The position numbers and the translations under genes are program-made. The notes beneath the pieces are model-generated. The model had not been told where the DNA came from. It saw only the letters and a list, made by a program, of their open reading frames with translations, and ran no database searches. Positions 2-40,917 of a DNA stretch of 64,000 bases are shown here, piece by piece; the stretch's first letter is position 1, and the number at the start of each line of letters is the position of its first letter. This stretch comes from Marivirga sericea. GTDB taxonomy: Bacteria > Bacteroidota > Bacteroidia > Cytophagales > Cyclobacteriaceae. The stretch covers positions 310,001 to 374,000 of the forward strand of contig NZ_FXAW01000001.1 in assembly GCF_900177665.1 (NCBI RefSeq), read 5' to 3'.

Positions 2-3000
2 AAGCACTTTTTAACCTTATTTTTATTGATACTATGCACGTTCAGTGGTATTGCCCAAGATAGGACAGTTTCCGGTGTGGTTACTGACGAAAAAGATCAA
101 CCTCTTCCCGGAGTTAATATTATGATTGTCGGAACTTCTTCAGGAACTACCACTGATTTCGATGGGAATTATAAATTGTCAGTAGATGATAATGCCGTTC
201 TCAGATATAGCTTTATTGGATATACAACGACTACTGCAAATGTTAATGGACGATCTGTGATCGACATTAAAATGCAATCAGATTTTGAATCATTGAGTGA
301 GGTTGTAGTAGTAGGTTATGGTAGTCAAAAGAAATCGGTGGCATCAGCTGCGATATCTACAGCTGACGTGGAAACCATGGAAAAAATGAGTGTTCCTAAT
401 GTTGGCAGATCTTTACAAGGCTTAGTTAATGGAGTATCTGTTAGTGGGGTTTCAGGACAACCAGGGAACAACCCAACTATTCTTATTAGAGGGGTAGGAA
501 GTAATTCAAATAACAGGCCTTTAGTTGTAATTGATGGTTTACAGACACAAGTTGAAAACTTAAATGCACTTTCTCCTAGTGATATTGAATCAATTCAGGT
601 ATTAAAAGATGCAGCTTCAACTGCTATTTATGGTACAAGAGGTGCTAATGGTGTCATAGTAGTTAAAACAAAATCAGGTAAGCCTGGTCAAATGAGTTTA
701 AATTACAATGGCTCATACTTTATCCAGTCAGCATGGGAAACACCTCAAATGTTGAACGCAGAGCAGTACGTTGATATAATTAACGAAAAATACGAAAATG
801 GTAATACTAATTTACCTTTAGGTTTTCCCGAACGAGGAACAACACCTGCTTTTGATACTGACTGGATGGACAGGCTTTTTACGGAAGGTAGTATTCAAAA
901 TCATAATTTGTCTATAAGTAAAGGTACTGAGAAAGGACATTTATTTGCTTCAATGACGTATACCGGTCAAGAAGGTATTATAGCTCCTGAAAAATCATAT
1001 TTTGATCGATTAACAGTAAGACTTAATTCTGAAACTGAAGTGACAGATTTTATTACTTTTGGACAGAATTTGGCTGTTACTGCTACAAGATCTAGTGCGA
1101 TACCTGAAAACAACGAGTTTGGAACTCCTATTGCAGATGCTATAGTCTATGATCCAATAACTCCTGTTTTTGACAATAATTCTCAATTCGGATTTGCTCA
1201 ATCTCCATTTGTGCAGAAGGAATATATTAATCCTTTCAGTAGGATATTTATCAATAATAGCGAAACTAGTTCTGAGCAGATTTTTGGAAATGCATTTTTA
1301 GAAATTCAACCGATAAGTTGGTTGAAAATAAAAACAGATTTAGGCGTCAATAGATATAGTCAAATAGTTGACAATTATTCACCGGCTTACCAATTGACCC
1401 CAGCCATTTTTAATCCTAATAGCACAGTTGGGAACCAAAGTTACAGCAATTTTAGATGGCAGTGGGAAAATTATGCTACAGCTACTAAAGAATTTGGGCT
1501 GCATAATATTGAAGCAGTTCTAGGTTCTACTGCTATCAGATTTACTGAAAAGTCTTTTGGTGCCTCTGGTCAAAACTTACCAGTTGAAGCAGTTGAAAAT
1601 GAAAGTTTAAGATATGTTAATTTAACTCCTGATTCCTCAAGAAGAGCTTATGGAGGAGCAAGTGCTCCAAGAATTAATTCAAGTATATTTTTCAGGACTT
1701 TATATAATTATGATGAAAAGTATCTAGCTACGGTTTCGTTTCGTAGAGATGGATCCTCCAACTTTGGTAGTGAATACAGATTTGTGATTTTCCCTTCTTT
1801 TTCGGCTGGATGGGTAGCTTCTGAGGAAAGTTTCTTCGCTATTCCTTTTGTTGATTTTGCGAAGCTTAGAGTTAGTTATGGATCAAACGGAAGTGATAAT
1901 ATAGGTGCTTTTAATTACACTAGTTTAGTTACATTTAATAGTACCTATCAGTTCGGTGATGCTTCAAATCAAACAATTTATTATGGTGCAGCACCAGCTA
2001 GTTTGTCGAACCCATTTGTACGATGGGAAGAGTCCAGACAGTTGGATATTGGACTAGAAACTAAACTGTTTAATAACCAGGTCTCTTTCGAACTGGATTA
2101 TTATAGGAAAGTTACTGACGGATTATTGATTGTAAATGGTGCAACTCCTATCATCGGAGGTAATAACCCAGCATTTACAAATGTAGGTCAAATTGAAAAT
2201 TCGGGTTTTGAATTTAAGGTTGACTATTTCAAGCAAGTAGGAGAGGTCGACTTTGGAATTACACTAAATGGCTCGACTCTTAAAAATATTGTTACAAGAG
2301 TCGATGGAAATGAAGGGTTTTTAAATGGTTACAACTGGCCTGTAAGAAATGCTTTTATAAGTAGAATGGAAGTGGGAGAGCCTTTATTTTATTTTAGAGG
2401 TTACCAAGCCGATGGTATTTTTAGAAATGAGGCCGAAGTTTTTAGCCATATCAACAGTGAAGGTGATTTACTGCAGCCAAATGCTAAACCTGGCGATTTA
2501 AGATATATCGATGTAAACGGTGATGGTGATATTAATCTTGATGATTGGACCAACATCGGAAAACCTTGGGCTGACTTCACTTTTGGATTGAATCTAACTG
2601 CCGACTATAAAGGATTTGATTTCAATATGTTACTTGCCGGACAGATTGGTAACCAAATTTACAGAACATTTGAACGACAAGATGTCGTAAATAACAATTA
2701 CACAACAGAATGGCTAGATCGATGGTCTGAGTCTAATCCTGATGGTTCTTATCCTAGAGTTAATACAGGTGCTGTTGACCCTGTTGCTAATAATTACAGC
2801 CCTTCTAGCTTTTACGTTGAAGACGGAGATTTTTTAAGAATTAAAAACCTACAAATAGGATATTCTTTACCAAAAAGTCTCATTGAACAGGCTAAAATCA
2901 AGAAGGCTAGAATTTATTTCTCAGTTGATAATTTATTGACACTGACCGGTTATTCCGGGTTTGATCCAGAAATAGGCGTAAATAATTATAATGTGTCTGC

Positions 3001-12675: not shown

Positions 12676-13233
12676 ATGGGTTACTATTTTGCTCGTTTTA
12701 TACTTTGGATTGGCGGTTGGAAAGTATCCGCAAAAATACCAGAAAACACAAAGAAAGCAGTGATGATCGCTGCTCCTCACACCTCAAATTGGGATCTAGT
12801 ATGGGCAAGGGCTGCCTTTTACATTCTCAAAATACCTGTTCGCTTTACCGTCAAGAAAGAATTGCTAAAAGGTCCTTTAAAATGGCTTTTGAATGGTTTA
12901 GGTGCGATCGGCATTGACCGAAGCCACAAAAATGGAAAGAGGCAATCGATGACGGAGGCTATGGTGCAACTTTTTAATGAACGAGAAGAGTTAGTAGTCT
13001 TAGTAACTCCTGAAGGAACTCGCAGCTATCAACCAGAATGGAAGACAGGTTTTTACAGAGTAGCTGAAGGCGCTAATGTCCCTATATTCTGTGGTTATTT
13101 AGATTATAAAAATAAAATTGCTGGAGTTGGACCAAGTTTCATGGCAGAGGGAGACATGTCAGAAACCATTGAAAAAATTAAAGACTTTTATCGACCTATT
13201 CAAGGTAAATATCCGGAAAAGGGTGTTATTTGA
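12676..13233 (+). CDS. PlsC-like 1-acyl-glycerol-3-phosphate acyltransferase family protein
   Basis: A 185-residue acyltransferase of the PlsC/LPLAT fold, which transfers acyl groups to lysophospholipid-type acceptors at the inner membrane. The HX4D catalytic motif is APHTSNWD (H35, D40); the second block GIDRSHKNG and third block TPEGTRS, both involved in acceptor phosphate binding, are present. It is shorter than E. coli PlsC (245 residues) and belongs to the short group found widely in Bacteroidota. Its 3' end overlaps the convergent msrB gene by 8 bases. The exact acyl acceptor is unknown; this may be a side enzyme rather than the main PlsC. Confidence 0.85.
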
Positions 13234-13747
13234 TTTCCTTTTCCTTAAAATCTAAAGCAGCAGAGTTTAAACAATACCTCAAGCCTGTCGGTTTTGGTCC
13301 ATCTTCAAAGACATGTCCTAAATGCCCACCGCAAGTACCACAAACAACTTCGGTTCTAACCATTCCTAAGGAGCGGTCTTTTACTTCTAAAACATTCTTA
13401 TCGTTCAGTGGCTTATAAAAGCTAGGCCAGCCTGTACCACTTTCGTATTTGGTTTCAGAACTGAATAGTTTTGTTTTACATCCATTACAAACAAATGTCC
13501 CTTCTTTCTTGAAATCGTTGTATTTCCCTGTGAAAGCTCTCTCAGTGCCTGCTTCTCTAAGCACTCTATATTCTAATGGATCCAGTATTTCTTTCCACTC
13601 CGATTCCGATTTCTGAACTTCAAAGGAATGCTCTTTTAAATTTTTTTTATTTTCAGAACTGTTGTTTTGCTGCGCACAGGATTGAAAACTAAACGTCAAG
13701 ATCAACCCTAATATCCCAATATATTCCCCTAATCTAATACTTTTCAT
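13226..13747 (-). CDS. msrB: Peptide methionine (R)-S-oxide reductase MsrB, lipoprotein form
   Basis: Reduces methionine-R-sulfoxide in proteins. The 173-residue product has a lipoprotein signal with lipobox FQSC (Cys about 25), so it should act in the periplasm. The SelR domain contains the four zinc cysteines as CNGCK and CGTCGG, the block [14 protein letters not shown], and the catalytic Cys in [11 protein letters not shown]. All key residues are present. It converges on and slightly overlaps the acyltransferase gene. Confidence 0.95.
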
Positions 13748-13815
13748 TTTTGCAATTTTATATACTGTTAGCTTTTTATACTCTTTTAAATTTATAAAGT
13801 TTTGTACAATTTAAA

Positions 13816-14427
13816 TTACGGCTTTGCATATGCAAACTTTTTCAATTTGATTGGTTTAAAGTATTCATATAAACCTGAAATGGCTACAGTTCCTGCCCCA
13901 GACAGATCGACTGATCCATCTTCAGCAATCAATTTCTGATCTAAGTAAGCATGATGTATTTTTCCGACTACTAAGATGGTGCTGTTGACTGTGATTGGCA
14001 GTTCTTCTTCAAATCTCAAACCTAATTTAATCGTTGATTCTTTAACATATGGTGCGTGGAAATCATCTAGTATTTGCTTTTGAAATCCACAAGCATCAAA
14101 TTCGGATATGTTCCGATCATATTTTGCTGACGTTTGATGCGCTTTTGCAATGAAATCTTCATGCACATGATTTAAGGTATAAAAGCCAGTGCTCTTAATA
14201 TTTTCATAGGTGTGTCTATCAACAGTTGTGGGCCTCAAAATAAATCCTAAATATGGAGGATTTGCTCCAATATGAACTACAGAATTGAATATAGCTAAAT
14301 TTGAGTTTCCACTTTCATCTGTTGTCCCAATTAAATTTCCGCTTTTGAAGCCTGAAATTGTATTGAATAAGTTGCCTCTATATCTGTTTTCCATCTGGGC
14401 AATGTCTTCTTCATTAAGATGTATCAT
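13816..14427 (-). CDS. Flavin reductase-like domain protein (FMN-binding split barrel)
   Basis: A 203-residue soluble protein of the flavin reductase family, whose members bind FMN or FAD and often reduce it with NAD(P)H for a partner oxygenase. The stretch NLIGTTDESGNSNLAIFNS followed by HIGANPPYLGFILRP, then STGFYTLNHVHEDF, is the typical FMN-binding core. No partner monooxygenase is nearby. It is transcribed away from the ABC importer across a 150-base gap. Physiological substrate unknown. Confidence 0.8.
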   Translation of the reverse strand: MIHLNEEDIAQMENRYRGNLFNTISGFKSGNLIGTTDESGNSNLAIFNSVVHIGANPPYLGFILRPTTVDRHTYENIKSTGFYTLNHVHEDFIAKAHQTSAKYDRNISEFDACGFQKQILDDFHAPYVKESTIKLGLRFEEELPITVNSTILVVGKIHHAYLDQKLIAEDGSVDLSGAGTVAISGLYEYFKPIKLKKFAYAKP

Positions 14428-14578: not shown

Positions 14579-15475
14579 ATGATCAACTTTCAAAATATTG
14601 AAAAGTCCTTTGGTGAGCAATTGGTATTGAAAAGTATCAACCTAGAAATTAAAAAAGGAGAGTTGATGGTGCTTTTAGGGGCTAGCGGGAGTGGTAAAAC
14701 TACAATGCTTAGAATGATCAATGGGTTAGAAAACCCTGATTTTGGCTCAATTCAAATTGCTAATAAACGTCTTGAGAATCGTCCCTTATTAGAATTAAGA
14801 AAAGAAATAGGATATGTGATTCAAAAGGTGGGACTTTTTCCACATTATTCAGTTTACGATAACGTAGCAACTATTTTAAGGTTGAAGAATGAAAAAGAGC
14901 AAGTTGTTAAAGAAAAAGTTGAAAAGTGGTTAGATAAAATTGGGCTGAGAGTGTCAGTATATGGTAGGAAATTTCCAGCAGAGCTGAGCGGAGGAGAAGC
15001 ACAAAGAATTGGTTTGGCTAGAGCTTTAGTGGCAAAACCTAAAATAATTCTTTTAGATGAGCCATTTAGTGCTTTAGACCCTATCTCAAGGTTGAAAATT
15101 AGAAATGAGTTTCGTGAAATTCAGAAAGAAGAAAAGCTAACTGCTGTAATGGTGACACATGATGTATTGGAAGCAGTGAGCATGGCTGATAGAATATGTT
15201 TACTGGCTCATGGCGAAATTCAACAAGTGGGCACTCCGCAGGAAATTATTTATAAACCGAAAAATCAATCGGTCAAGGAATTTGTGAAGGGGGATCAATT
15301 TCAAGCTGCTTTAGCCTCAGTAAGTTTACGAGAGATTATACCATTTCTTAAGGCAGATGCCCTAGAAAATCAAGACCTTGATAGTTCAGTTCTTGATTAT
15401 TTACAAGAGGCTGATAGCACCTATCATGCTATTGTGCTGAATGCGTTCTACAAATGGAAGGAGGAACTACTATGA
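14579..15475 (+). CDS. Quaternary-amine ABC importer ATPase (ProV/OpuCA-like)
   Basis: ATPase of a glycine betaine/choline/carnitine-type importer. I start at the ATG at 14579 (MINFQNIEKSFG); an in-frame TTG 9 bases earlier is less likely. 298 residues. Walker A GASGSGKTT at 34-42, Q-loop IQKVGLFPHYSV, signature LSGGEAQR, Walker B with ILLDEPFSALDP, and switch His in VMVTHDVLEA. The C-terminal extension of about 60 residues has no clear CBS pair, unlike ProV or OpuCA, so osmosensing through CBS domains is not supported. The stop overlaps the next start in ATGA. Confidence 0.9.
   Translation: MINFQNIEKSFGEQLVLKSINLEIKKGELMVLLGASGSGKTTMLRMINGLENPDFGSIQIANKRLENRPLLELRKEIGYVIQKVGLFPHYSVYDNVATILRLKNEKEQVVKEKVEKWLDKIGLRVSVYGRKFPAELSGGEAQRIGLARALVAKPKIILLDEPFSALDPISRLKIRNEFREIQKEEKLTAVMVTHDVLEAVSMADRICLLAHGEIQQVGTPQEIIYKPKNQSVKEFVKGDQFQAALASVSLREIIPFLKADALENQDLDSSVLDYLQEADSTYHAIVLNAFYKWKEELL
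15458..15464 (+). promoter_or_regulatory. Strong Shine-Dalgarno site deciding the permease start
   Basis: AAGGAGG lies 7 bases before the ATG at 15472. Such a site is unusual among the genes of this window. It is inside the end of the ATPase gene and argues for the start at 15472 rather than the in-frame ATG at 15454; it would support re-initiation after the overlapping stop. Confidence 0.7.
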
Positions 15476-17049
15476 ATTCCTTCTATGAATTTCTCTTAAA
15501 AAATAAAATGGAAGTCTTTAAGCAACTGATAGAGCATATCGAGTTGACTTTAGTTTCTTTATGTATAGCAATTTTATTAGGTGTGGCTATTGGGATTTTA
15601 ATAGCTGTTAACAAAAGATCAACCAAGACGGTTCTTACTTTAGTTAATACGATTCAAACTATCCCGAGTTTAGCTTTATTAGGCTTTCTACTGCCTTTCC
15701 TAGGGATCGGAGTAGTTCCTGCAATCATGGCACTTTTTCTGTACGCCTTACTTCCTATCGTACGAAATACCTATACTGGAATTTCCGAAGTTGATGCTTC
15801 TGTTAAGGAATCTGCCATTGCGATGGGCATGACACGATCACAAATTTTGTTTAAAGTGGAATTGCCGCTCGCTTTACCTTATGTAATGGCAGGTATTAGA
15901 ACTGCATCGGTAATCAATGTTGGGGTCGCTACTTTGAGTGCTTTTATTGCAGCAGGCGGTCTTGGTAAATTTATTCTTCAAGGGATTCAGCTGAACAATA
16001 CCAATATGATCTTGGCTGGCGCAATACCAGCCTCTTTGCTGGCTTTGTTTTTTGATGCAATTTTAGGTAAAATTCAAAGCAGTAGCACCAAGGTGATTCG
16101 TTGGTTTTCCATTATTCTCTTAGGAGGAACTTTCATATATCTCCTGATATCAGGGGTGCAAAATTTCAATAAATCTACTATAGAAAAGGATTTAATTGGG
16201 GGCTTTCCCTCAGAATTTGTTTACAGAGAAGATGGCTTAAAAGGATTATTTAAAGCATATGATTTCGAAATAAAGTATGTAGAAATGGAAATTGGCTTAA
16301 TGTATCAAGCTTTAGCTAATGGCGAGGTGGATGTTGTTAGTGGTTTTTCAACAGATGGGAGAATCAAAGCTTATAATTTGAGAACGCTTGAAGATAACCG
16401 GAATTATTTCCCTCCCTACGAAGCTGCTCCAGTTGCGAGGCAATTGATCATTAAAAAATATCCTGAAATTAAAGAATCCTTAGCTCGACTTGAAGATCGA
16501 ATCACGAATGATGAAATGACGGAAATGAATTTTAAAGTTGATGAAAGAAAGATGCAGCCTGAGGAAGTCGCTTTAGACTTTCTACTAGCAAAAGGTATTC
16601 TTTCAACTGAGCGGGAAGCGCCAGTCAAAAGAAGCGGAATCATTAAAATTGGAAGTAAAGCTTTTACTGAGAATTATATTTTAGCGCACTTATTTAAATT
16701 TGTAATAGAAGCGCATACCAATCTAAAGGTAGAACTTAAACTTGGCTTTGGTGGTACTAAATTACTGATGGATGCTATGAAAAATGATGAAATAGATCTA
16801 TATCCAGAGTACACAGGGACAGCATTATTGTTGCTTTTAGAAACTAACACTCAAGAGCGTGAATCCATAATGTCTAATCCTGAGAAAGTATATGGGTTCG
16901 TTAAAAGGGAATCGCTCAAGCAATTCGAGTTTGAATGGCTATCTACCCTGGGTTTTAATAATACATTTGCTATTTTAATGCGGTCTGAGCAAGCAGCAAA
17001 ACTTAATTTGCAAAATGTTGAAGATTTAGCAAAATATTCTCTTCAATAG
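15472..17049 (+). CDS. Quaternary-amine ABC importer permease fused to a circularly permuted substrate-binding domain
   Basis: A 525-residue membrane protein. Residues 1 to about 235 are an OpuCB/ProW-type permease: several helices, the EAA-like loop VKESAIAMGMTRSQILFKVELPLALP, and a last helix at about 209-231. The rest is a glycine betaine-type binding domain whose two halves are in reversed order: about 243-385 matches the second half of OpuCC-like proteins (FVYREDGLKGLF, GFSTDGRIKAYNLRTLED, FPPYEAAPVARQ), then about 390-525 matches their first half (IKIGSKAFTENYILAHL, YPEYTGTALL, NNTFAILMRSEQA). The halves total about 280 residues, one whole domain, so this looks permuted rather than broken. 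It would import glycine betaine, choline or a related compatible solute. Confidence 0.88.
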   Translation: MNSFYEFLLKNKMEVFKQLIEHIELTLVSLCIAILLGVAIGILIAVNKRSTKTVLTLVNTIQTIPSLALLGFLLPFLGIGVVPAIMALFLYALLPIVRNTYTGISEVDASVKESAIAMGMTRSQILFKVELPLALPYVMAGIRTASVINVGVATLSAFIAAGGLGKFILQGIQLNNTNMILAGAIPASLLALFFDAILGKIQSSSTKVIRWFSIILLGGTFIYLLISGVQNFNKSTIEKDLIGGFPSEFVYREDGLKGLFKAYDFEIKYVEMEIGLMYQALANGEVDVVSGFSTDGRIKAYNLRTLEDNRNYFPPYEAAPVARQLIIKKYPEIKESLARLEDRITNDEMTEMNFKVDERKMQPEEVALDFLLAKGILSTEREAPVKRSGIIKIGSKAFTENYILAHLFKFVIEAHTNLKVELKLGFGGTKLLMDAMKNDEIDLYPEYTGTALLLLLETNTQERESIMSNPEKVYGFVKRESLKQFEFEWLSTLGFNNTFAILMRSEQAAKLNLQNVEDLAKYSLQ

Positions 17050-28652: not shown

Positions 28653-31600
28653 ATGGCACTAGCACTTATAAGACAGGCGATCACGATTTACTCTTTAATT
28701 TTCATATTTAATGTGAGTTATAGTAAATCCCAGAGTGCTCCTCCCAGCATAGAAATTGATTCGAAAGGTCATTCTGGTAAAATTTATAATCTTTCATATA
28801 CAGCAGATGGTTCCCAACTTATATCAGTATCGGAAGATAAGAGCATAAGGGTTTGGAATACTGTTACTGGTGAGCTTATCAAAAAATATGTATCTGAAAT
28901 CAGCGATGGCTATGGTGGAACTTTTTATACGAGCAGCATTTCTCCAGATGGTAAGTTATTGGCCGTTGCAGGCTACCCGGTAGAGAGTCAAAAAGAAAAT
29001 TACATATTAATAATAGATTTAGAGGAAGGAAAACAAGTTGGCACGGCTGTAGGGCATTTTAATGTGATTCAATCACTCGATTTTAGTGGTAATGGACGAT
29101 ATTTGGCCAGCGGAGGTGATGATGGCTACATCATTATCTGGGAGCTTGAAACAAATGAAGGTGGGATGGATTTAACAAAAGTCTCCACCATTAACATGGG
29201 TACTCCTGTATCTTCTGTTTCTTTTAATAAAAAGAGCCAAGATTTAATTGTAGGCGCAGAAAGCGGAATCTTTATTTATGATCTATCAGTTATTCATGAA
29301 AATGGTGATTCTTTTCCGAATAAAAAGCTTTCCAAATACAAAGGAATTGTCAATAAAGTGAGTTGTTCTCCTGACGGCAAATATATTGCTGCTAGTACCT
29401 TTGAGAAGGAAGTATTACTCTGGCAGAATGATGGTAGTTTTATTACTGCTTTAGACGAGCAGGAAGGCATTGTTAATGCCCTTAGCTTTTCCTATGATTC
29501 TCGTATTCTGGTAACGATGGATATTGCAGGTAAAGGCATTAGCTATACACTACCTAATGCTTCTAAAATTGCAAGCTTCGATGCTCACGATAACACTGTT
29601 TTCGCAGCAGCTTTCTCACCAAAATCCTTAGAAGGCAATTATATGATAGCTACAGCTGGGGGTAATAATCATGAAATTTACATGTGGAATGCCATTAGTG
29701 GGCAATCTAAATTGAGTATCAAAAGCAAAGGAAATACGATTTGGGGCCTCGCTTTTGGTAAGGAACTTGAATTACACATTTCTACTGATCAGCGCAAAGA
29801 CAAAACTTATTCTCAAAGCTTCGATTTCAAGAGTTTTCAACTGCATGCTGAACCGATTAGTGAATCAGGAAAGCAAATTTCAAGTGTGCCAAAAATGAAA
29901 GTGTACCAAAAGGATCTTTATTCTTTGGATATTGAAAGAGGGGGCACTATTGTGAATGATCCAAGAGTGGATGGTAGGATTTTAGCTTTTACTAGTTCAA
30001 TTAATAATGAACTTATTGTTGCCAGCGATTTATCACTTAAAATGTATAATAGGGATGGGAATCTCAAAAAAATATTTAAAGGGCATAAGGGAAGCGTAAG
30101 GTCTGTTTCTGTCAGTGCCGATGGAAGATATCTTGCATCAGGCAGTGAAGACCAATCTGTGATCTTATGGAAATTGGATGAAGAAGGAGTTTTACCTAGC
30201 ATTCGGGAGGTCTTCGATGATCCTATCTGGCAAGAGTATTTCGAAAGTCTACCATTTGACTCTTTAACATACATCACCAATACCAGTGCTTGGCAGGAAA
30301 CTATTAACCTGATGAAGGATGCTAAAGATAGAAACTGGAAAGACCTCAATGAAGTCTACGAACAATTAGGTGCTGTTGCCGAACCTTTTTTAAATCTATT
30401 TATTTCTGCTGACAAAGAGTGGGTTTGCTGGGCACCAAAGGGTTATTTTAGTTGTAGTAGCGATGGTTCGCGTTATTTTGGCTGGCATATAAATAGAGGA
30501 ATAAATACGCTTGCTGATTTTTATATTGCTGAACAATATTTTGATATTCTGTACAGACCTGAAATCCTATGGAAAAGTATTGCAAAAGGAGAACGAGTTG
30601 AGGATATATTGAGAGCAGAAGGTGACGAGATTTTTGACTTGACAAAGCTAAATAGGCCTTCAGCCATCTTTTTTGAGTTAACGAAGTCTCAAATTGATTC
30701 TGCTGGTCTTGATTATCAGAGGGGTACTTATGTTTCTGAAAGTCCGACTTTATCACTAGGTGTAACCTATTATGACGGAGGGGGAGGAGTAAAGGAAATT
30801 AACATTTACCAGAATGAAAAACTCATTATTCTGGATAAAGAAGTAGAGAGCATAGGTGAAGGTAGAAAAGAGAAAAAGAGCTATGAGGTTAATTTATCTC
30901 CAGGCTTGAATAATTTTACAGTAGTTGTAAAGAATTATCAAAACACTGAATCAAGAGAAGATAAATTAAAAATCTCCTATGATGGTGTTATGGAGGCATC
31001 ATCTAACCTTCACATTATTTCTATTGGGATAAATAAGTATAAGAATTCTAAGTACAACCTGAATTATGCGTTTTCCGATGCTCAAACTTTTACCTCAACA
31101 ATTCAAAAAAATACCAGCTCACTATTTAAATCTGTCAATCTAGTAGAGATTTACGATTACGAAGCCACTAAGGATAATATTGTTTCTGCTTTTGATGCGG
31201 TAAGTAAAAAGGCCGGTATTCAAGACGTATTTATATTTTACTACGCTGGACACGGAATTATTGATGAGGAAAATGAAAGTGAATACTTCTTGGTTCCTAC
31301 GGATGTCACTAGCATTTATGGTGATTCAAAACAGCTCCAGCAAAAAGGTGTTTCTGCTTCTGATTTGAAACTGCTCTTGTCAAAAGTAAAAGCACAGAAG
31401 CAATTAATTCTTATGGATGCCTGCCATTCCGGTGGAGCCGTAGCAGCAATTACAACGCGAGCCGTGGCCTCAGAGGAAAAAGCGCTTTTTCAATTAGCAA
31501 GAGCTTCGGGTGTAGTAATGGTTGCTTCCAGTGGCTCAAAACAGTTCTCCACTGAATTTGAATCTTTAGGTCATGGAGTATTTACTTATGCTTTGCTAGA

Positions 31601-31772
31601 GGCACTGGATGGTAAAGCTGATCAGGGTGATGATAAAATAACAGTAAATGAAATTAAGCTTTATTTAGAAGAGCGGGTTCCTTTTCTAAGTAATGAGTAT
31701 GGAGGCAAAGCTCAATACCCAACTGGCTTTGTGCACGGAAATGATTTTCCGATTGGCATCGTGACAAGGTAA
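28653..31772 (+). CDS. WD40-repeat / caspase-like (peptidase C14) fusion protein
   Basis: A 1039-residue protein joining a WD40 propeller to a caspase-like protease. An N-terminal hydrophobic segment (IYSLIFIFNVSYSKSQ) looks like a signal peptide. WD40 units run from about 35 to 510, e.g. GHSGKIYNLSYTADGSQLIS and GSVRSVSVSADGRYLASGSE. After a middle region (about 510-780), the C14 domain has the dyad H867 in YYAGHGIIDE and C924 in LMDACHSGGAV. The family normally cuts after Arg or Lys (metacaspase type) or Asp. No T9SS sorting domain is visible, so it is probably periplasmic or membrane-tethered. WD40-caspase fusions are known in filamentous and gliding bacteria; their role is mostly unsettled. 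Confidence 0.9.
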   Translation: MALALIRQAITIYSLIFIFNVSYSKSQSAPPSIEIDSKGHSGKIYNLSYTADGSQLISVSEDKSIRVWNTVTGELIKKYVSEISDGYGGTFYTSSISPDGKLLAVAGYPVESQKENYILIIDLEEGKQVGTAVGHFNVIQSLDFSGNGRYLASGGDDGYIIIWELETNEGGMDLTKVSTINMGTPVSSVSFNKKSQDLIVGAESGIFIYDLSVIHENGDSFPNKKLSKYKGIVNKVSCSPDGKYIAASTFEKEVLLWQNDGSFITALDEQEGIVNALSFSYDSRILVTMDIAGKGISYTLPNASKIASFDAHDNTVFAAAFSPKSLEGNYMIATAGGNNHEIYMWNAISGQSKLSIKSKGNTIWGLAFGKELELHISTDQRKDKTYSQSFDFKSFQLHAEPISESGKQISSVPKMKVYQKDLYSLDIERGGTIVNDPRVDGRILAFTSSINNELIVASDLSLKMYNRDGNLKKIFKGHKGSVRSVSVSADGRYLASGSEDQSVILWKLDEEGVLPSIREVFDDPIWQEYFESLPFDSLTYITNTSAWQETINLMKDAKDRNWKDLNEVYEQLGAVAEPFLNLFISADKEWVCWAPKGYFSCSSDGSRYFGWHINRGINTLADFYIAEQYFDILYRPEILWKSIAKGERVEDILRAEGDEIFDLTKLNRPSAIFFELTKSQIDSAGLDYQRGTYVSESPTLSLGVTYYDGGGGVKEINIYQNEKLIILDKEVESIGEGRKEKKSYEVNLSPGLNNFTVVVKNYQNTESREDKLKISYDGVMEASSNLHIISIGINKYKNSKYNLNYAFSDAQTFTSTIQKNTSSLFKSVNLVEIYDYEATKDNIVSAFDAVSKKAGIQDVFIFYYAGHGIIDEENESEYFLVPTDVTSIYGDSKQLQQKGVSASDLKLLLSKVKAQKQLILMDACHSGGAVAAITTRAVASEEKALFQLARASGVVMVASSGSKQFSTEFESLGHGVFTYALLEALDGKADQGDDKITVNEIKLYLEERVPFLSNEYGGKAQYPTGFVHGNDFPIGIVTR

Positions 31773-33051: not shown

Positions 33052-36000
33052 CTATTTTACCACAGTTATTAACTGCTGCTGTTTGACTTGCATTCCAGCG
33101 AACCTAATAATCACTATGCAGACGTAATTGCCTGATTCTAGCTCAGGTCTATTAGCTATAGTGCTGGGAGTATTACTAAAAGAGGTAGATGAAAATACCA
33201 CTTTACCCCATCGGTTTAGAAGTTGCACCTGATGATCCTCATATTTCTCAATATTTTCGATATAAATAAAATCGTTTTGACCATTGTTATTAGCTGTAAT
33301 GATGTTTCCAATAGTAATAATGATCTCGGTGTTCACAATGACTGTTTGAGTCACAACATCTTCACAAGGACCATTGGAAACAGTTAAAGAAACTGTATAA
33401 TTTCCAGGGAGTTCATACGTATGCGTTGGATTTTCACTAGCAGAGGTGCTACCATCTCCAAAATCCCAGCTCCAATTATTTACCTCTCCGGTAGAAGTAC
33501 TAGTAAATTGGTATTCTAAGTCACTGAGAGGAGAAACCATAAAGCTGAAGTCTGCTGTTGCGGGGGGAGCCAAATTATATGAAATGTTTGAGGGTACGCC
33601 AACACCACAGCTATTGACACCTGCTACTGAAATTTGACCTGCATCTTGAGCCGTATAAGTAAGTTCAGGTGTATCAGTCGTCACGGATCCAGAAGGAGTT
33701 TCCCATTGGTAGCTTTCTGCACCGTTAATTGCCGATGTCGTGTAAGTAACTTCATCGCCAACACATAAATCATTAGGTCCATTAATCTCAGCAGCATCAT
33801 CTGGAGCAGACAAGACCTCTATATTGATTTCACTTGCACCTGAGCAACCATCAATGTTGACCGTATAATTTATTAATGAAATACCTATGCCTGCTACTGT
33901 AGGATCGAAAGTGCCTGCATCAGGGTCAGTAATTCCAGAGCCACTCCATTGTCCACCGCTAGGTGTTCCAATTAAAGTGATAGGCGTACTTTCCAAACAA
34001 ATTGGAGCCACTTCATCAATCGATACTTCAGGACTTTCATTAACGAGAATGGTTGTGGTTTTTACGTCTTGGCAGCTACCAACCTCAAGGGTATAGGTGA
34101 TAATATTTTCACCAATAGTTGCAGAAGTTGGATCAAAGATGCCACTAGCTTCATCAGTAATACCAGTACCGCTCCAGCTTCCGCCAGGATTTATTGCACT
34201 TAAGGTGACGGGTGCATCTCCAGAACAGAAAGGTCCCGCTGCACTGATACTCGCATCAGGTGTTTCCAATACTGTTATGTCAATACTTTCTTCATTTGAA
34301 CAGCCTAATTCCGAGATAGTGTAGGTAATCGTAAAAGTACCTACACCTGCTGTATTCGGATCAAAAGTACCAACCGTTCCATCAGTGATGCCAGTTCCAC
34401 TCCAAATTCCACCTGAAGGTGTAGCGACTAAGGAAGTCGATGCATCTGACAAACAGAATGGACCCTGTGCGTCCAAAGTGATAATGCTAACAGGATTGAC
34501 AGTAATTGTTGCAGATCCTGTAACAGCTGTTGCTGCACATCCACTTGCATCACTAGCACTTACTAAGGTGTAGGTAGTAGTTTCTGTGGGGGTTATCGCT
34601 TCGACATGTCCATTATCTATGCCTGTTAACACAACATCTGCTGCTCCATCATTATAGGTTACCTCAAAAGGACCAGTCCCGGTAAGCGTAAAAGTTAGAT
34701 CGCTAGATTCGCCTTCACAAATAGTAACATCTCCTGCAATAGCAACCGTTGGTAACGGATTGATGTTGATTGTTGCAGATCCTGCAAGAGCAGTTGCCGC
34801 ACAGCTATTTGCATCAGTTACACTCACTAAGGAGTAGGTGGTAGTGGCCGTTGGAGTTACCTGTTCTATATGTCCATTATCAATACCAGTTAATACAACA
34901 TCTGCTGCTCCATCATTGTAGGTTACATCGTAAGGACCAGTGCCGGTCAGCGTAAAGCTAAGATCGCTAGATTCTCCTTCACAAATTGTAGCATCTCCTG
35001 AAATAATAACCGTTGGTTCGGGGTTCACTATTACTGTTGCAGAACCTGTGACAGCAGTGCCTGAGCAGTTATTAGCATCAATCACACTCACCAAGGAATA
35101 GGTGGTAGTAGCTGTTGGTGTTACCGATTCTATATAACCATCATTTATACCAGTTAACACAACATCTGTTGCTCCATCACTATAGGTTACATCGTAAGGA
35201 CCAGTCCCGGTCAGCGTAAAAGTTAGATCGGTAGAAGTTCCTTCACAAATAGTAGCATCTCCTGCAATAACAACTGTTGGTACAGAGTTCACGGTTATGG
35301 TGAGCAAAGCGTCTAAAATGGTTTCGCAGGTTTGCCCTGCATCTTCACCTACCACGGTTAAAATATTATCTCCCAATATAATACCATCGACACCATCAGT
35401 TAAGGTGATAGGAGTGACTGCATTTCCTTCTGTCCAAGTTCCAAGTTCATTTCCTCTAGTGCTTAGATTCGTAAAGTTACTGTACAGCTTATAGGTAAAA
35501 GCCGTCTGAACGTTTGCACCAATGCTGAAATCAAAGGAACTCCCGTCACAAACACTTAATTGACTTGCAGTTGGTATTGCAGTCGCATCCACTAAGGGGG
35601 CATCCCCATTGATTATCCAATTATTTGGGGCTCCTGTAAGCTCATTTCTTCCTGTGGCATCACAATAAGTAAGTCCTACAGCGCCCAAGGTGATGCTGCT
35701 AGGGATGGCAGTTTCCCCTGCTCCGCCATCAATAGTTCCCCAACCCAGTAAAGTAGCTTCATAATTTGCGGTTGACATCCCCGAATTATCTAACATCTCT
35801 TCCATATCCAGCACATTTCCAATATCCCAACCTCCCAAATCTTGATCAAAAGCAGTAGCACCTCTAAACATTCCATCTTCAAAAGCACCGCTTGGCGATG
35901 CTCCCATATCCGTTACATTGCTTACATCCCAACTACCAATATCTCGATTAAAAGCAATTGCAAATGAAAACATTCCGCTCATGTTTGTTACATTACTTAC

Positions 36001-39000
36001 GTCCCATCCAGATATATCGGAATTGAAGGCCTGAGCATCTGAAAACATTTGACTCATATCTTCAGCAGCGGTTAGTGTCCAGTTTGCAATATTCCCGTTG
36101 AAAACATCTGTGGATATAAACATTCTGTCAAAGTTTACCACCGTACTCACATCCCAGTTACTTAAATCCTGGTTAAATGCATTTGCTTGTTGGAACATCC
36201 CTTCCACGGTTAAAACGCCATTCAACTTATTTGCCCATCCATCCAAAGGCTGATTAAAAGAATCTGTAAAAGCAAACATCCCACTCATGTCAGTAGCCCC
36301 GATAACATTCCACGCCTCAAGAGGAGAATTATAATCATTTGCTCCGGCAAACATCCTTACAAAATTTTCTACTAAACTCACGTCCCATATACTAATGTTC
36401 TGATTGAATGCCTCAGCTCCATCAAACATTCTTTGCATTGATGTTACTGTACTCACGTCCCAAGCGGCTATATCGCCATTAAAAACTGATGCACTTTCAA
36501 ACATGCTCTGCATTGAGCTTACTCCTGATAGGTCAGGAATATCAACAGCGTTATAGGTAAGGTTAGAACATCCTCTAAATGCTGATTCCATTGATCGCCA
36601 AGCGATATCTCCCCATTGTTCTATCGTTTGTATTTTGGCAGTGTTCGGATCAAGCTGACTAGGGTCATTGAAATATATTTGGGGAAAATTTCCCGAAATG
36701 GAAACCGTATAAGTACCAGCAGAAGCGTAAGTATGAGTGGCATCACCTGTTTGAGCTGTACTCGTATTACCATCACCCCAATCTACGTCATAAAGGTAAC
36801 CTCCTCCAAAAGTAGGTATGTTAATCGATTCGCTAGCTGTGGTCGTCCTCCAGGTGGTGATAAAGGGTGGGCCAGGGGTCCTAATCAGAACATTTCCATC
36901 TCCAGATAAATAATTACCACCAACAACTGTGGTATTTAAGAAATTATCAGAGGAAAGGGATGGATCTGCAGCTAGGTTAGAGAAGAGGCCATTAGTAGTA
37001 GCTCCTTGATTAATTTCAAAATCTTGTGGGTTATTATTGTTATGGCTTATAAACACAGACCCGGAAGAAGTGCCTCCTACTGTGGAAATGCTTGCGTTAT
37101 TACCGTTAAGATTAGAGAAAGAACCAGAGCCAATTACCTCATTTAGAGCAGTTATACTTACGTTACCACCTCCTTCAAGTGGGTATTCTGCACTTATGGT
37201 GGAAAAGTTTACTGACCCTGCAGAAGAATTTAAATCTATATTACCACTAGCACCATCACCTACTGTACAAACAGTTTCAATTTCACCTGTAGTAATGTTA
37301 CCAAGGGCACTAATTGTTAAATCACCACTTCCTGCTGAACCGCCATTTGTAATAATACCATTGGGTATTGTTACAGTTCCATCACTTGTAAGTGCTACAT
37401 CACCACCGCCATTAGTCCCACTTGTATTAATCCCTAAACCTGCTGCAAAAGTTATGTCAGCTAGTGACTGGATGATAACAGGAGCTCCGAAAGAACCAGA
37501 TGCCACAACATCTGTATTAAAAATTAAGTCCCCTACAGTACTGATTGTTATATTTCCTGCCCCTTGGGCTCCACTAACTTGAATGCTGGAGAATGTTGTT
37601 GGAGCAGCTCCGCCTGTGGTAACATTTAAATTACCAAAAATACTCCCAACACCTGGTTGCGTATTAATATCTAAGGGCTGATTGATATTACCAAAAATAT
37701 CTAAGGTGATGTTGTTTCCCTCATTAGCTGATGCTATAAGTTCTAATGGGGTAGCAGTAGAATTCAAATTCCCTGCGGTACTTGTAATTGTAATTTCTCC
37801 TGCCGTTGAAGGGAAACCAGTCGCTGAAGCATCTACTGTTCCATTTATGCTAATATCTCCGGCGGCTGTTAAGTCAATGTCGCCACCATTGTCAACGGCA
37901 GTAGTGTTTATGCCTAATCCAGCCCCAAAAGAAATCGTATTAACATCTATGAGAATATTTCCACCAGCACCGTTAGCTCCGGTAATATTAGAGTTAAGAT
38001 TTGTATTAAACACTAAGTTTGAACTGCCGATTGCAGTAAAATCTCCACCTCCATTTGTGCCATTCATATTCAGCACAGCAATAGTGGTTGTTCCTGAAGC
38101 AATATCAAGTGAGACAGATCCGCCAGCACCTCCCGTTACTCCATTTTCACTCACATTAAAAGACAAGTCGTTTAAAACCTGATTTGAGTTAATAGCTATA
38201 GAACCTCCAGCACCTCCGGATGAGGCTGAGGTAGAAACATCAAAAATTAAATTACCTACTGGTTTAGACAATGTTTGAGCATCGATAAGTATAGAACCGC
38301 CACCACCATCTCCAGTAGCTAAAAAAGAGCCTGTTATATCCACTATGTTACCTGTTATATCGATTGTATTACCATTTGCCATTGTACTCCCCGCAGAAGC
38401 ATCTACATTGCCGTTAATAGTAATATCGTTCCCTAATAAAGTAATTGGGCCCGATCCAGGTCCCCCTGTTGCTGCATCGAGAGTTCCAGTAGTAATATTA
38501 TTTGCGGACGAGATATTAATCGGCCCAGAACCACTAAAACTATCTTCTGTTGCTAAGTCACCACAAGTAATATTACCAATGAAGCTATTGAGGTTTAAGG
38601 CAGGGCCTCCCGAATTCAAATCTAATACATTAATAATTCCTCCATCAATGTCTACGCCACCACCGCCAATCCCCCCATTTGTAGAAATATTACCAGTTGC
38701 TGTAACTGTGCCGTTAACTGCATTTAGTGTTATTGCACCACCAAAATCAGTGCCTCCGCTAGAGGCAAGGCTAGTGACCGAGATATTTCCGCTTGTACTT
38801 GTGATATCAATGGCTCCGCCATTTGGCACACCATTGTTTGTAAATGCTCCTAATAAACTAACATCTCCACCTGCCGTTATATTTAGAATTCCTCCAGAAA
38901 TTAGTCCGCCATTTAGATTAAAGCCAGGAAGCGTTAAATCACCACCCACATTGAATGTGACATTTCCAGAGGCTCCTAAACCATTAGGACTGATTGTATT

Positions 39001-40917
39001 AATAGTAGTAGGGCCTATTCCAGAGGTTGTGATACTAATATCACCACCGCCTCCAGCTCCTCCAACCGTATTTATGCTTAGAGGAGTTAAAATACTTCCA
39101 GCTATAGTTAAGGTAATCGTGCTCCCGTTTTGGTCTGAAGCATTTAGACTTAGCGGGCTCGCCGAAGAATTTAAATTACCTCCAGTACTCTGGATAGAAA
39201 TAGTTCCGGCACCAAGCCCACCTCCATCGGAGTTTACAGTTCCATTTATATCTATATCTCCACCTGCAACTACATTTATATTTCCGCCAGCACCACTTGC
39301 TGCTTGAGAACTTAAGTTGTTAAACTGTATTACATTTGCAGCAATTAGATCTATTGTTCCTCCATGAGTAACAATAGATTCTGTTGACCCAGCCATAAAT
39401 CCATTTGCATTTAAAACAACAGAAATTGATTCGGAGTCTCCAGTAACTCCATCGAAGATACTTCCCTGTAAATTAATATTGTTTTCCGCATTGAGCGTAA
39501 GTGTATTACCAGCACCACTTCCATTATAATCAATATCAACCAAAAGATTAATATTACCTTGTTGAGCACCACCTGTATTGGTATTGATGGTAACATCACC
39601 GGAACCCAGTGCGCTAGTAATTAAATTAACTCCTAGCTGGGCATTATCTCCGGTTGGGTTAAAAGGAGAAGTGGTATTGATATTGGTATTTCCTCCACCC
39701 GCTACAATATCAATATTCCTTGGATCTAACAACCACTCGCCTCCATTACTACTTTCAGCGCTCACATCAGGGACGGTGCGCACGTCTAGGTTTATCTTTC
39801 CACTGGTTTCAATAAAGCCTCCTTTACCACTACCTGTTCCTTTGGCACTGAGGTTACCATATACTTGCGTAAAGTCATCCGCCCACACAATAATTCTACC
39901 GCCATCGCCATCCGCTGTGGCATTTGCTGTTATGGTAGCATTTGGGGCTATATAAGTTTTTTGCGCATTGGGTATACTCCCTTTACCTTTGAAGTCGCCA
40001 CCAATTAAAATGGTACCGCCTCCATTTGGAGCAGATGCATCCAAGTAAGCTTTTTCTCCGATTTCAACGTCACCTTTAGAGAGTATCTGTATGAGCCCAC
40101 TTGTTTTGTTGGATGTTATCTCACCAAATACTTGACTTAATCTATCTGCAAAAACTGAAACTTGAGCTCCATTTAATGCCCCTGTTACGATTAATTTTCC
40201 TTTCCCATCATTTCCTTCTAGTGCTTTGAGGTCAATATCGCCTGTAGTTCGAATAGTCTCTTTCACTTCGATCTCAGAAGCAGTTACATCTAATCCTTTA
40301 TCACCCAAGTCTAAAACCTCTGAAAAAGTGACTGTCAGAGGAGTCTTGGAAACGGGATTTGAATTGATCTTCAAATTCTGTCCAAAAGAAGCGGGCAACT
40401 TGCCAATCTCTAACTCCTTCACATTAAGTCCTGTCACAATCTCAAGCGTTTTATTTTCTGGTGACAATGTCATAGAAAATTCCTTGTTATTGCATTTAAG
40501 GATGAGAAAAGTAGCATCTTCACCAGACTCTAAACTAATATCAGTATATCCGGCAGGAATATTTATTTGTTGTACCCCAATAGCTGAAAATTTGATCCAA
40601 CTGTCCGGCACAGTTTGTAAAAGCAATTTATCTTTCGAATAACCATCTGAGTCGGAAAGCATTCCTTGATTATTGATCAAATCAGATGTTTTATGAGTAG
40701 AAAAGGCTGAACTATGAGCTAATACAGTTCCGTTAGCCAAGGTGAGTTTACTAATAGTTGATAATCGTTTAGTAGTATCAGCCCCTTGTTGTAAAATTTT
40801 CGGACTTAGTAACGTTGAGAAAAGTAAAATGAGTAATAAGACATTGTTCATAGAAGATCTAGCACCTAAGATATTAGGTTGGATGTTATTACTTTGAAAT
40901 ATAGTTTTAAGCTTCAT
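33052..40917 (-). CDS. Giant mosaic cell-surface adhesin, T9SS type B cargo
   Basis: A 2621-residue surface protein. From the N-terminus: a membrane/signal segment at about 24-42; a filamentous-haemagglutinin-like region (to about 420) with GGRIIVWADDFTQVYGNLSA and GGEWLLDPRNIDI; a long Gly/Asn/Ser-rich beta-helix region to about 1330; a PKD-like unit (VDWGDGNTS) at about 1350-1410; nine BspA-type repeats of about 25 residues (pattern MF..A.AFN.DI..WDVS.V) at about 1430-1716; three 88-residue Ig-like repeats at about 1877-2139; three further repeats of about 78 residues (SGTGITD); a PKD domain (WSWDFGDGST); and a gliding-motility-type C-terminal domain (NIITANNNGQNDFIYIENI, QLLNRWGKVVF). It probably mediates adhesion. 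It is encoded with the PorP/SprF-family gene. Confidence 0.9.
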   Translation of the reverse strand: MKLKTIFQSNNIQPNILGARSSMNNVLLLILLFSTLLSPKILQQGADTTKRLSTISKLTLANGTVLAHSSAFSTHKTSDLINNQGMLSDSDGYSKDKLLLQTVPDSWIKFSAIGVQQINIPAGYTDISLESGEDATFLILKCNNKEFSMTLSPENKTLEIVTGLNVKELEIGKLPASFGQNLKINSNPVSKTPLTVTFSEVLDLGDKGLDVTASEIEVKETIRTTGDIDLKALEGNDGKGKLIVTGALNGAQVSVFADRLSQVFGEITSNKTSGLIQILSKGDVEIGEKAYLDASAPNGGGTILIGGDFKGKGSIPNAQKTYIAPNATITANATADGDGGRIIVWADDFTQVYGNLSAKGTGSGKGGFIETSGKINLDVRTVPDVSAESSNGGEWLLDPRNIDIVAGGGNTNINTTSPFNPTGDNAQLGVNLITSALGSGDVTINTNTGGAQQGNINLLVDIDYNGSGAGNTLTLNAENNINLQGSIFDGVTGDSESISVVLNANGFMAGSTESIVTHGGTIDLIAANVIQFNNLSSQAASGAGGNINVVAGGDIDINGTVNSDGGGLGAGTISIQSTGGNLNSSASPLSLNASDQNGSTITLTIAGSILTPLSINTVGGAGGGGDISITTSGIGPTTINTISPNGLGASGNVTFNVGGDLTLPGFNLNGGLISGGILNITAGGDVSLLGAFTNNGVPNGGAIDITSTSGNISVTSLASSGGTDFGGAITLNAVNGTVTATGNISTNGGIGGGGVDIDGGIINVLDLNSGGPALNLNSFIGNITCGDLATEDSFSGSGPINISSANNITTGTLDAATGGPGSGPITLLGNDITINGNVDASAGSTMANGNTIDITGNIVDITGSFLATGDGGGGSILIDAQTLSKPVGNLIFDVSTSASSGGAGGSIAINSNQVLNDLSFNVSENGVTGGAGGSVSLDIASGTTTIAVLNMNGTNGGGDFTAIGSSNLVFNTNLNSNITGANGAGGNILIDVNTISFGAGLGINTTAVDNGGDIDLTAAGDISINGTVDASATGFPSTAGEITITSTAGNLNSTATPLELIASANEGNNITLDIFGNINQPLDINTQPGVGSIFGNLNVTTGGAAPTTFSSIQVSGAQGAGNITISTVGDLIFNTDVVASGSFGAPVIIQSLADITFAAGLGINTSGTNGGGDVALTSDGTVTIPNGIITNGGSAGSGDLTISALGNITTGEIETVCTVGDGASGNIDLNSSAGSVNFSTISAEYPLEGGGNVSITALNEVIGSGSFSNLNGNNASISTVGGTSSGSVFISHNNNNPQDFEINQGATTNGLFSNLAADPSLSSDNFLNTTVVGGNYLSGDGNVLIRTPGPPFITTWRTTTASESINIPTFGGGYLYDVDWGDGNTSTAQTGDATHTYASAGTYTVSISGNFPQIYFNDPSQLDPNTAKIQTIEQWGDIAWRSMESAFRGCSNLTYNAVDIPDLSGVSSMQSMFESASVFNGDIAAWDVSTVTSMQRMFDGAEAFNQNISIWDVSLVENFVRMFAGANDYNSPLEAWNVIGATDMSGMFAFTDSFNQPLDGWANKLNGVLTVEGMFQQANAFNQDLSNWDVSTVVNFDRMFISTDVFNGNIANWTLTAAEDMSQMFSDAQAFNSDISGWDVSNVTNMSGMFSFAIAFNRDIGSWDVSNVTDMGASPSGAFEDGMFRGATAFDQDLGGWDIGNVLDMEEMLDNSGMSTANYEATLLGWGTIDGGAGETAIPSSITLGAVGLTYCDATGRNELTGAPNNWIINGDAPLVDATAIPTASQLSVCDGSSFDFSIGANVQTAFTYKLYSNFTNLSTRGNELGTWTEGNAVTPITLTDGVDGIILGDNILTVVGEDAGQTCETILDALLTITVNSVPTVVIAGDATICEGTSTDLTFTLTGTGPYDVTYSDGATDVVLTGINDGYIESVTPTATTTYSLVSVIDANNCSGTAVTGSATVIVNPEPTVIISGDATICEGESSDLSFTLTGTGPYDVTYNDGAADVVLTGIDNGHIEQVTPTATTTYSLVSVTDANSCAATALAGSATININPLPTVAIAGDVTICEGESSDLTFTLTGTGPFEVTYNDGAADVVLTGIDNGHVEAITPTETTTYTLVSASDASGCAATAVTGSATITVNPVSIITLDAQGPFCLSDASTSLVATPSGGIWSGTGITDGTVGTFDPNTAGVGTFTITYTISELGCSNEESIDITVLETPDASISAAGPFCSGDAPVTLSAINPGGSWSGTGITDEASGIFDPTSATIGENIITYTLEVGSCQDVKTTTILVNESPEVSIDEVAPICLESTPITLIGTPSGGQWSGSGITDPDAGTFDPTVAGIGISLINYTVNIDGCSGASEINIEVLSAPDDAAEINGPNDLCVGDEVTYTTSAINGAESYQWETPSGSVTTDTPELTYTAQDAGQISVAGVNSCGVGVPSNISYNLAPPATADFSFMVSPLSDLEYQFTSTSTGEVNNWSWDFGDGSTSASENPTHTYELPGNYTVSLTVSNGPCEDVVTQTVIVNTEIIITIGNIITANNNGQNDFIYIENIEKYEDHQVQLLNRWGKVVFSSTSFSNTPSTIANRPELESGNYVCIVIIRFAGMQVKQQQLITVVK
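34494..35290 (-). repeat. Three tandem 264-base coding repeats
   Basis: Within the giant adhesin gene, three units of about 264 bases (88 residues) follow each other with very high similarity. Each contains the stretches ICEG.S.DL.FTLTGTGP and DVVLTGI..G. The likeness is also strong at the DNA level, so the units arose by recent duplication or are kept alike by recombination. Confidence 0.85.

Follow-up and report, generated by a model that had tools for sequence, protein, structure and literature searches.

A permease-fused cluster F-III binding domain with its halves in reversed order in Marivirga sericea and other Bacteroidota

The DNA analysed here is a stretch of 64,000 nucleotides from Marivirga sericea (contig NZ_FXAW01000001.1), referred to below as the window. 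It contains two adjacent genes for an ABC importer, one for the ATPase and one in which the transmembrane permease domain (TMD) is fused to a C-terminal binding domain of the ProX/OpuCC/EgtUC type (cluster F-III). The halves of this binding domain stand in reversed order: the second half (H2) follows the permease, and the first half (H1) ends the chain. The system is a cluster F-III importer rewired to the OpuAC layout. We interpret it as a two-gene quaternary-ammonium ABC importer whose fused F-III domain was circularly permuted to H2-H1, and we assign this reading a probability of roughly 0.85. Its parts are located in the window as follows:

14579..15475, plus strand: ATPase subunit gene of the importer, ABC_tran (Pfam PF00005, 1.4e-36; 298 aa from the ATG at 14579)
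15472..17049, plus strand: permease fused to a circularly permuted binding domain (open reading frame, Pfam, PDB-sequence matches and genome scan)
15580..16068, plus strand: transmembrane permease domain, BPD_transp_1 (aa 43-205 of the 531-aa reading; Pfam 9.1e-26)
16087..16173, plus strand: further helix leading to the binding domain (residues 206-234 of the 525-aa model; AlphaFold2 secondary structure)
16180..16584, plus strand: H2, the second half of the binding domain, first in the chain (PF04069 positions 113-255; Pfam and genome scan)
16585..16641, plus strand: linker from the old C terminus to the old N terminus (19-codon gap between the PF04069 pieces; pLDDT of the block 77-88)
16642..17043, plus strand: H1, the first half of the binding domain, last in the chain (PF04069 positions 3-113; genome scan)

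The fusion gene lies in a complete open reading frame (15454-17049, plus strand) that gives 531 aa from the ATG at 15454. The likelier start is the ATG at 15472, for a product of 525 aa; this codon overlaps the end of the ATPase gene, whose stop lies at 15475. By analogy with EgtUBC and OpuA, the helix at residues 206-234 would serve as a membrane anchor; the linker that follows it in the AlphaFold2 model has about 7 residues and a pLDDT of about 60. In the 301-aa reading of the ATPase, Pfam (E 0.001) matched only ABC_tran and AAA_21, with no match to a CBS domain. An ATPase-like ORF on the same strand accompanies the permuted fusion at 98 of the 109 loci described below, mostly abutting or overlapping the fusion gene, and none was present within the stretch fetched at the remaining 11. 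Divergent from the importer operon, the minus strand at 13226-14427 carries a SelR-type (MsrB-like) methionine sulfoxide reductase and a flavin reductase-like gene. Elsewhere in the window are a 1039-aa protein in which WD40 repeats precede a caspase-like domain (Peptidase_C14; 28653-31772, plus strand), a giant 2621-aa protein that matches DUF285 and PKD and carries a CHU_C type IX secretion signal (33052-40917, minus strand) and a 575-aa ORF with no Pfam match at 1e-5 (50019-51746, minus strand).

The reversed order is evident from the Pfam match to PF04069 (OpuAC), which scored 186.4 bits against a cut-off of 21.2 and fell into two stretches. The best of these aligns aa 243-377 of the 531-aa reading with profile positions 113-255, and positions 3-113 are matched after it. 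Proteins of known structure give the same inversion. A phmmer search with residues 240-531 against PDB sequences listed 34 chains up to E 10, 27 of which are ProX, OpuCC, OpuBC, EgtUC or OsmF-type proteins or sensors built from them; B. subtilis OpuAC (E 0.026) and chance matches make up the remaining seven. With the query in its natural order, each of the 27 chains aligned in two or three stretches, and the best stretch aligned a front half with a back half, whether the front half came from the query or from the chain; for three of these chains the inverted pairing was checked residue by residue. When the halves were put in canonical order, 23 of the 27 chains aligned in one stretch, and the remaining four are sensors carrying an inserted fluorescent protein. 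A. fulgidus ProX (1sw1), for example, matched in two stretches in the natural order (E 3e-41) and over query residues 5-280 and chain residues 8-274 after reordering (E 9.9e-45), while the E value for EgtUC (9o5f) went from 9.4e-49 to 6.3e-52. A canonical haloarchaeal relative (locus L155), used as a control, aligned in one stretch with 25 of the 27 chains. The single-stretch matches obtained after reordering, together with this control, show that the binding domain is complete and permuted. The first-pass annotation was thus correct in stating that the domain reads second half first and that its pieces together make one complete betaine-type domain joined to the permease, and the separate alignment of the two segments to OpuCC-like proteins that it proposed does pair opposite halves. 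It had also named a case that would undo this reading, namely that homologous loci carry a second, complete binding-protein gene and both halves here are remnants. For M. sericea we reject this case, as no other PF04069 protein was found (E 0.01) in the genome, whose listed completeness is 99.97%. The matched solved members of cluster F-III have the order H1-H2; because the order here is H2-H1, we count the fusion as a variant of the cluster rather than as an ordinary member.

AlphaFold2 predicted the full chain with a mean pLDDT of 91.3 and a pTM of 0.78 (56-row alignment) and the binding domain alone with a pLDDT of 93.9 and a pTM of 0.91 (42-row alignment). In the latter model the permuted chain closes into one two-lobe domain, as the first-pass annotation had anticipated. 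This closure of a single chain, along with the fact that the two pieces sum to one domain, argues against H2 and H1 belonging to different binding domains, whether as remnants of a tandem pair or through an interchain domain swap in a dimer. Such an arrangement would suit a transporter that is expected to be a dimer, and tandem binding domains do exist, as in GlnPQ (PMC8025302); however, no ORF with extra halves was seen among those scanned at 144 loci, and we regard this explanation as very improbable.

Structural comparison separates the topology of the domain from its sequence kinship. Foldseek alignments of the predicted domain with F-III structures were limited to about 140 columns (35-41% identity, mostly 1.3-3.4 A), and those with B. 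subtilis OpuAC covered the entire domain (14-16% identity, TM-score 0.56-0.60, rmsd 5.4-5.9). Other whole-length alignments were poorer than those with OpuAC; they include one with canonical AfProX (3mam; 323 columns, rmsd 7.3, TM-score 0.40), which spans the whole length because H1 and H2 resemble each other. In VIA-align, four OpuAC entries scored Z 19.3, 18.6, 18.3 and 18.1 and the next entry scored 10.5; the other type II folds, at 10.5 and below, are taken to reflect general likeness, and F-III entries were absent among the 50 matches listed for the domain. The best OpuAC entry, 2b4m (Z 19.3, rmsd 3.9, 246/264 residues), aligned in sequence order from end to end (model 6..289 to chain 12..272), so that the superposition on OpuAC suggested by the first-pass annotation covers the whole domain. 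The full chain aligned likewise with L. lactis OpuA (7ahh_A; Z 25.1, rmsd 4.5, 377 residues, model 11..519), and the row after OpuA covers the permease alone (205 residues). These end-to-end alignments with OpuAC and OpuA, at 14-20% identity, combined with the F-III sequence matches, point to a domain that has OpuAC topology and ProX/OpuCC/EgtUC sequence. The circular permutation that relates OpuAC to the ProX proteins has already been published (PMC2395249, section 11), as the first-pass annotation had noted. It had further singled out the tethering of a permuted domain to the permease; the fusion is real, but its layout has a precedent in L. lactis OpuA (7ahh_A). Relative to unpermuted fusions, the lobes would be placed differently toward the channel.

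The position of the cut can be mapped on EgtUC, where residue 364 is the last of H1 and residue 370 the first of H2. Lobe D1 of EgtUC comprises residues 232-331 and 445-503, and lobe D2 comprises residues 341-432 (PMC9732360); the cut therefore falls inside D2. The alignment places it about 25 residues beyond the first linker of EgtUC, within lobe 2, and not at the first hinge crossing between the lobes, where it had initially been placed. On the same mapping, the new termini are both in D2 and the old termini are both in D1; a short linker, roughly 14-19 residues long, connects the latter. With its new termini in lobe 2, the domain would be held by the anchor helix through lobe 2 and not lobe 1.

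The residues of the cation cage and the carboxylate site were retained across the permutation in an alignment of 108 permuted rows. Tyr453, Asn503, Tyr322, Glu254 and Thr435 are invariant, and Lys402 and Arg258 are kept in 106 rows. Tyr or Phe occupies position 505 in 103 rows and position 298 in 98, the other 10 having Ser at 298. The M. sericea protein has the Tyr/Phe cage and Asn/Asp base of cluster F-III in this alignment (Y453, F505, F298, Y322 and N503), with Phe at positions 298 and 505, where AfProX and most permuted relatives have Tyr, and Asn503 at the position of AfProX Asp109. These departures from AfProX, like the rows with Ser at 298, count against our reading. The cage of OpuAC, in contrast, is built of Trp (PMC9732360, PMC10087775), and Tyr, Phe and Asn are found here instead. 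We also considered an ergothioneine importer like EgtU, which is marked by G244 and F293 (PMC9732360). The residues at these positions are F404 and Y453, which match A. fulgidus ProX; ergothioneine is thus an unlikely ligand. As judged from the sequence, the system is probably an importer for a quaternary amine, and our best guess for its ligand is a compound of the glycine betaine, choline or carnitine type.

The permuted order is common among related bacteria. Among 59 genomes (M. sericea and its relatives), 30 had some match to the fusion and 18 had near-full-length matches, that is, permuted ones; across 296 genomes of the phylum, 68 had some match (1e-12) and 15, M. sericea included, had near-full-length ones. 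A survey of domain order in homologues, as proposed in the first-pass annotation, identified the H2-H1 fusion (TMD-H2-H1) in 109 ORFs from 144 domain-scanned loci, along with 17 ORFs of the order H1-H2-TMD and three of the order TMD-H1-H2, the rest being single or broken parts. These 144 loci hold repeats and near-copies (L111, L118 and L124 repeat genomes already sampled, and L032 and L010 are apparently one contig). As 80 of them are the best 80 of 586 matches, the true spread is wider than counted. The permuted order occurs in Cytophagaceae, Spirosomataceae, Hymenobacteraceae, Chitinophagaceae, Sphingobacteriaceae, Lewinellaceae and Haliscomenobacteraceae, in isolate and metagenome assemblies alike and with open reading frames. 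Because so many relatives in the same phylum keep it, this order is apparently a working design and not a mistake. Misassembly is ruled out by the 109 ORFs that share the order, and we give next to no credence to a frameshift or a decaying gene: a few relatives do appear frame-broken (L094, L101, L103 and L105), but the order is common to both types of assembly from several families, the frames are open and the pocket is conserved. Outside Bacteroidota, the best 80 of 586 matches included one copy only, L094, which has a frame break and lies on a contig labelled as a Verrucomicrobia MAG; it is possibly mis-binned or decaying.

Two fused layouts were seen in Bacteroidota, TMD-H2-H1 and H1-H2-TMD, and among the loci scanned TMD-H1-H2 was confined to Bacillota, Fusobacteriota and one cyanobacterium. 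The five canonical C-terminal fusions examined (L140, L141, L143, L162 and L163) are all TMD-H1-H2. The H1-H2-TMD proteins, with a canonical domain ahead of the permease, come from Bacteroidota (L021, L022 and L126-L139) and a Gemmatimonadetes MAG (L110); in the match tables of the 59- and 296-genome surveys they never occur together with the permuted fusion in one genome. Three matches in which the permease alignment extends to residue 288-297 (H58-H60) were considered as partial permutations and rejected, as L162 and L163 are canonical TMD-H1-H2 fusions and L159 has separate genes for permease and binding protein; we attribute the run-on to the resemblance between H1 and H2. No free-standing permuted domain was seen in the scanned loci (L019 is cut by the contig end and L105 has a frame break), and the ORFs of the 144 loci included no duplication intermediate (H1-H2-H1 or longer). 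In 260 plasmid records searched at E 1e-20, no location reached 80% coverage of the query, and none of the 14 records that were domain-scanned had the permuted order. We recognised no published permuted F-III fusion in the literature searched, which is a weak negative, with subscription papers mostly beyond reach.

Phylogenetic trees bring the permuted proteins together. In a tree of the binding domain, which had no outside root, the 28 permuted rows included (of 108) form one group with SH-aLRT 96. A careful tree of the permease domain comprised 48 rows, with 16 of 103 permuted, 9 of 17 H1-H2-TMD and 5 of 10 outgroup sequences; its 16 permuted rows also form one group (87/93). The outgroup consists of more distant permeases, taken as ProW/OpuAB-type from their distance (31-35% identity) and their neighbours, with a binding-protein-like ORF at 8 of the 10 loci. 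Repeat fetches (L111, L118 and L124) and loci with a weak permease match (L023-L030) were left out of all trees, the broken permuted copies L094 and L105 and the unrelated permease L156_755 were dropped from both the careful and a quick permease tree, and L161_3591, L157_4309, L160_4058, L157_2890 and L155_1102 were dropped before the careful tree for their long branches. In the careful tree the permuted family is nested within the F-III systems: it shares a branch supported at 95/88 with canonical systems from Bacillota, Pseudomonadota, Fusobacteriota and other phyla. On this basis a second, independent permutation, arisen within F-III in Bacteroidota, is likely. We grade it no higher because a constraint under which all remaining F-III rows form a group without the permuted family was 4.68 log units worse and was not rejected (AU p 0.188), and it was even better than the quick permease tree (78 rows, 28 of 103 permuted), by 22.8 log units (p 0.793). 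Grouping all non-permuted F-III rows raised the likelihood of the quick tree by these 22.8 units, which marks that tree as unreliable, and the long outgroup branch (2.02) makes the root unsure either way.

The same AU results suit an inherited order, in which the family would stand at the base of F-III and keep the OpuAC-type order, and the canonical ProX/OpuCC order would have come later. The nearly equal ends of model and chain in the OpuAC alignment fit it as well. The nested position in the careful tree and its 95/88 branch speak against it, as do the low identity to OpuAC (14-17%) and the Tyr/Phe cage in place of Trp, and we consider it unlikely. Equally doubtful is the reading that the permuted family, with F-III sequence in OpuAC order and a basal place in F-III, is a living link between the two topologies and shows that betaine-binding domains changed their order while joined to the permease.

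In our preferred reading, a permutation within F-III, the fusion protein would be both the membrane subunit and the capture subunit for a quaternary-ammonium solute of the glycine betaine, choline and carnitine class. The transporter would be assembled from two copies of the ATPase and two of the fusion chain, which ends in one complete two-lobed F-III domain of the order H2-H1. The permutation perhaps took place in an ancestor of the Bacteroidota family, when a tandem duplication was followed by loss of the outer halves. The domain would thereby have arrived at the topology of OpuAC and of the L. lactis OpuA fusion, probably starting from another sequence lineage. Each binding domain of OpuA is tethered by an anchor helix with an 11-residue linker (PMC11065425). 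By analogy, two binding domains per transporter would lie near the docking site, and the attachment through lobe 2 may alter the permease copy that a given lobe contacts.

This appears to be a second natural permutation in one fold family, and it has been kept across many Bacteroidota families; it offers a natural test of how far capture domains tolerate re-wiring. With permease identity of roughly 40-55% among TMD-H1-H2, H1-H2-TMD, separate-gene and TMD-H2-H1 relatives, the role of the tethered lobe in docking and transport can be asked directly across the four layouts. Since one Pfam name covers both orders, plain domain annotation may well hide permutations.

Among known systems, EgtUBC (S. 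pneumoniae EgtU) and other cluster F-III fusions share with the M. sericea protein the family of the binding halves, the C-terminal fusion and the cage positions. OpuF is another cluster F-III fusion of permease and binding domain. The five canonical C-terminal fusions read TMD-H1-H2, whereas the protein described here reads TMD-H2-H1, and the helix of EgtUBC enters lobe 1, whereas the helix here enters lobe 2. The Bacteroidota H1-H2-TMD fusions belong to the same family and are also single chains, but with a canonical domain ahead of the permease. A. fulgidus ProX, OpuBC and OpuCC share sequence and pocket positions with the permuted domain, but they are free proteins of canonical order. Conversely, B. 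subtilis OpuAC has the same topology at a binding-domain identity of only 14-17%, and L. lactis OpuA (OpuABC) has both the same topology and the same layout of permease, anchor helix and binding domain; these proteins differ in their Trp cage, and the OpuA ATPase differs in carrying CBS domains. The Treponema protein Tp0684 (MglB-2) is a naturally circularly permuted, membrane-tethered sugar-binding protein (PMC4990184), a natural permutation like the one described here, but of another fold class (type I, cluster B) and in a lipoprotein.
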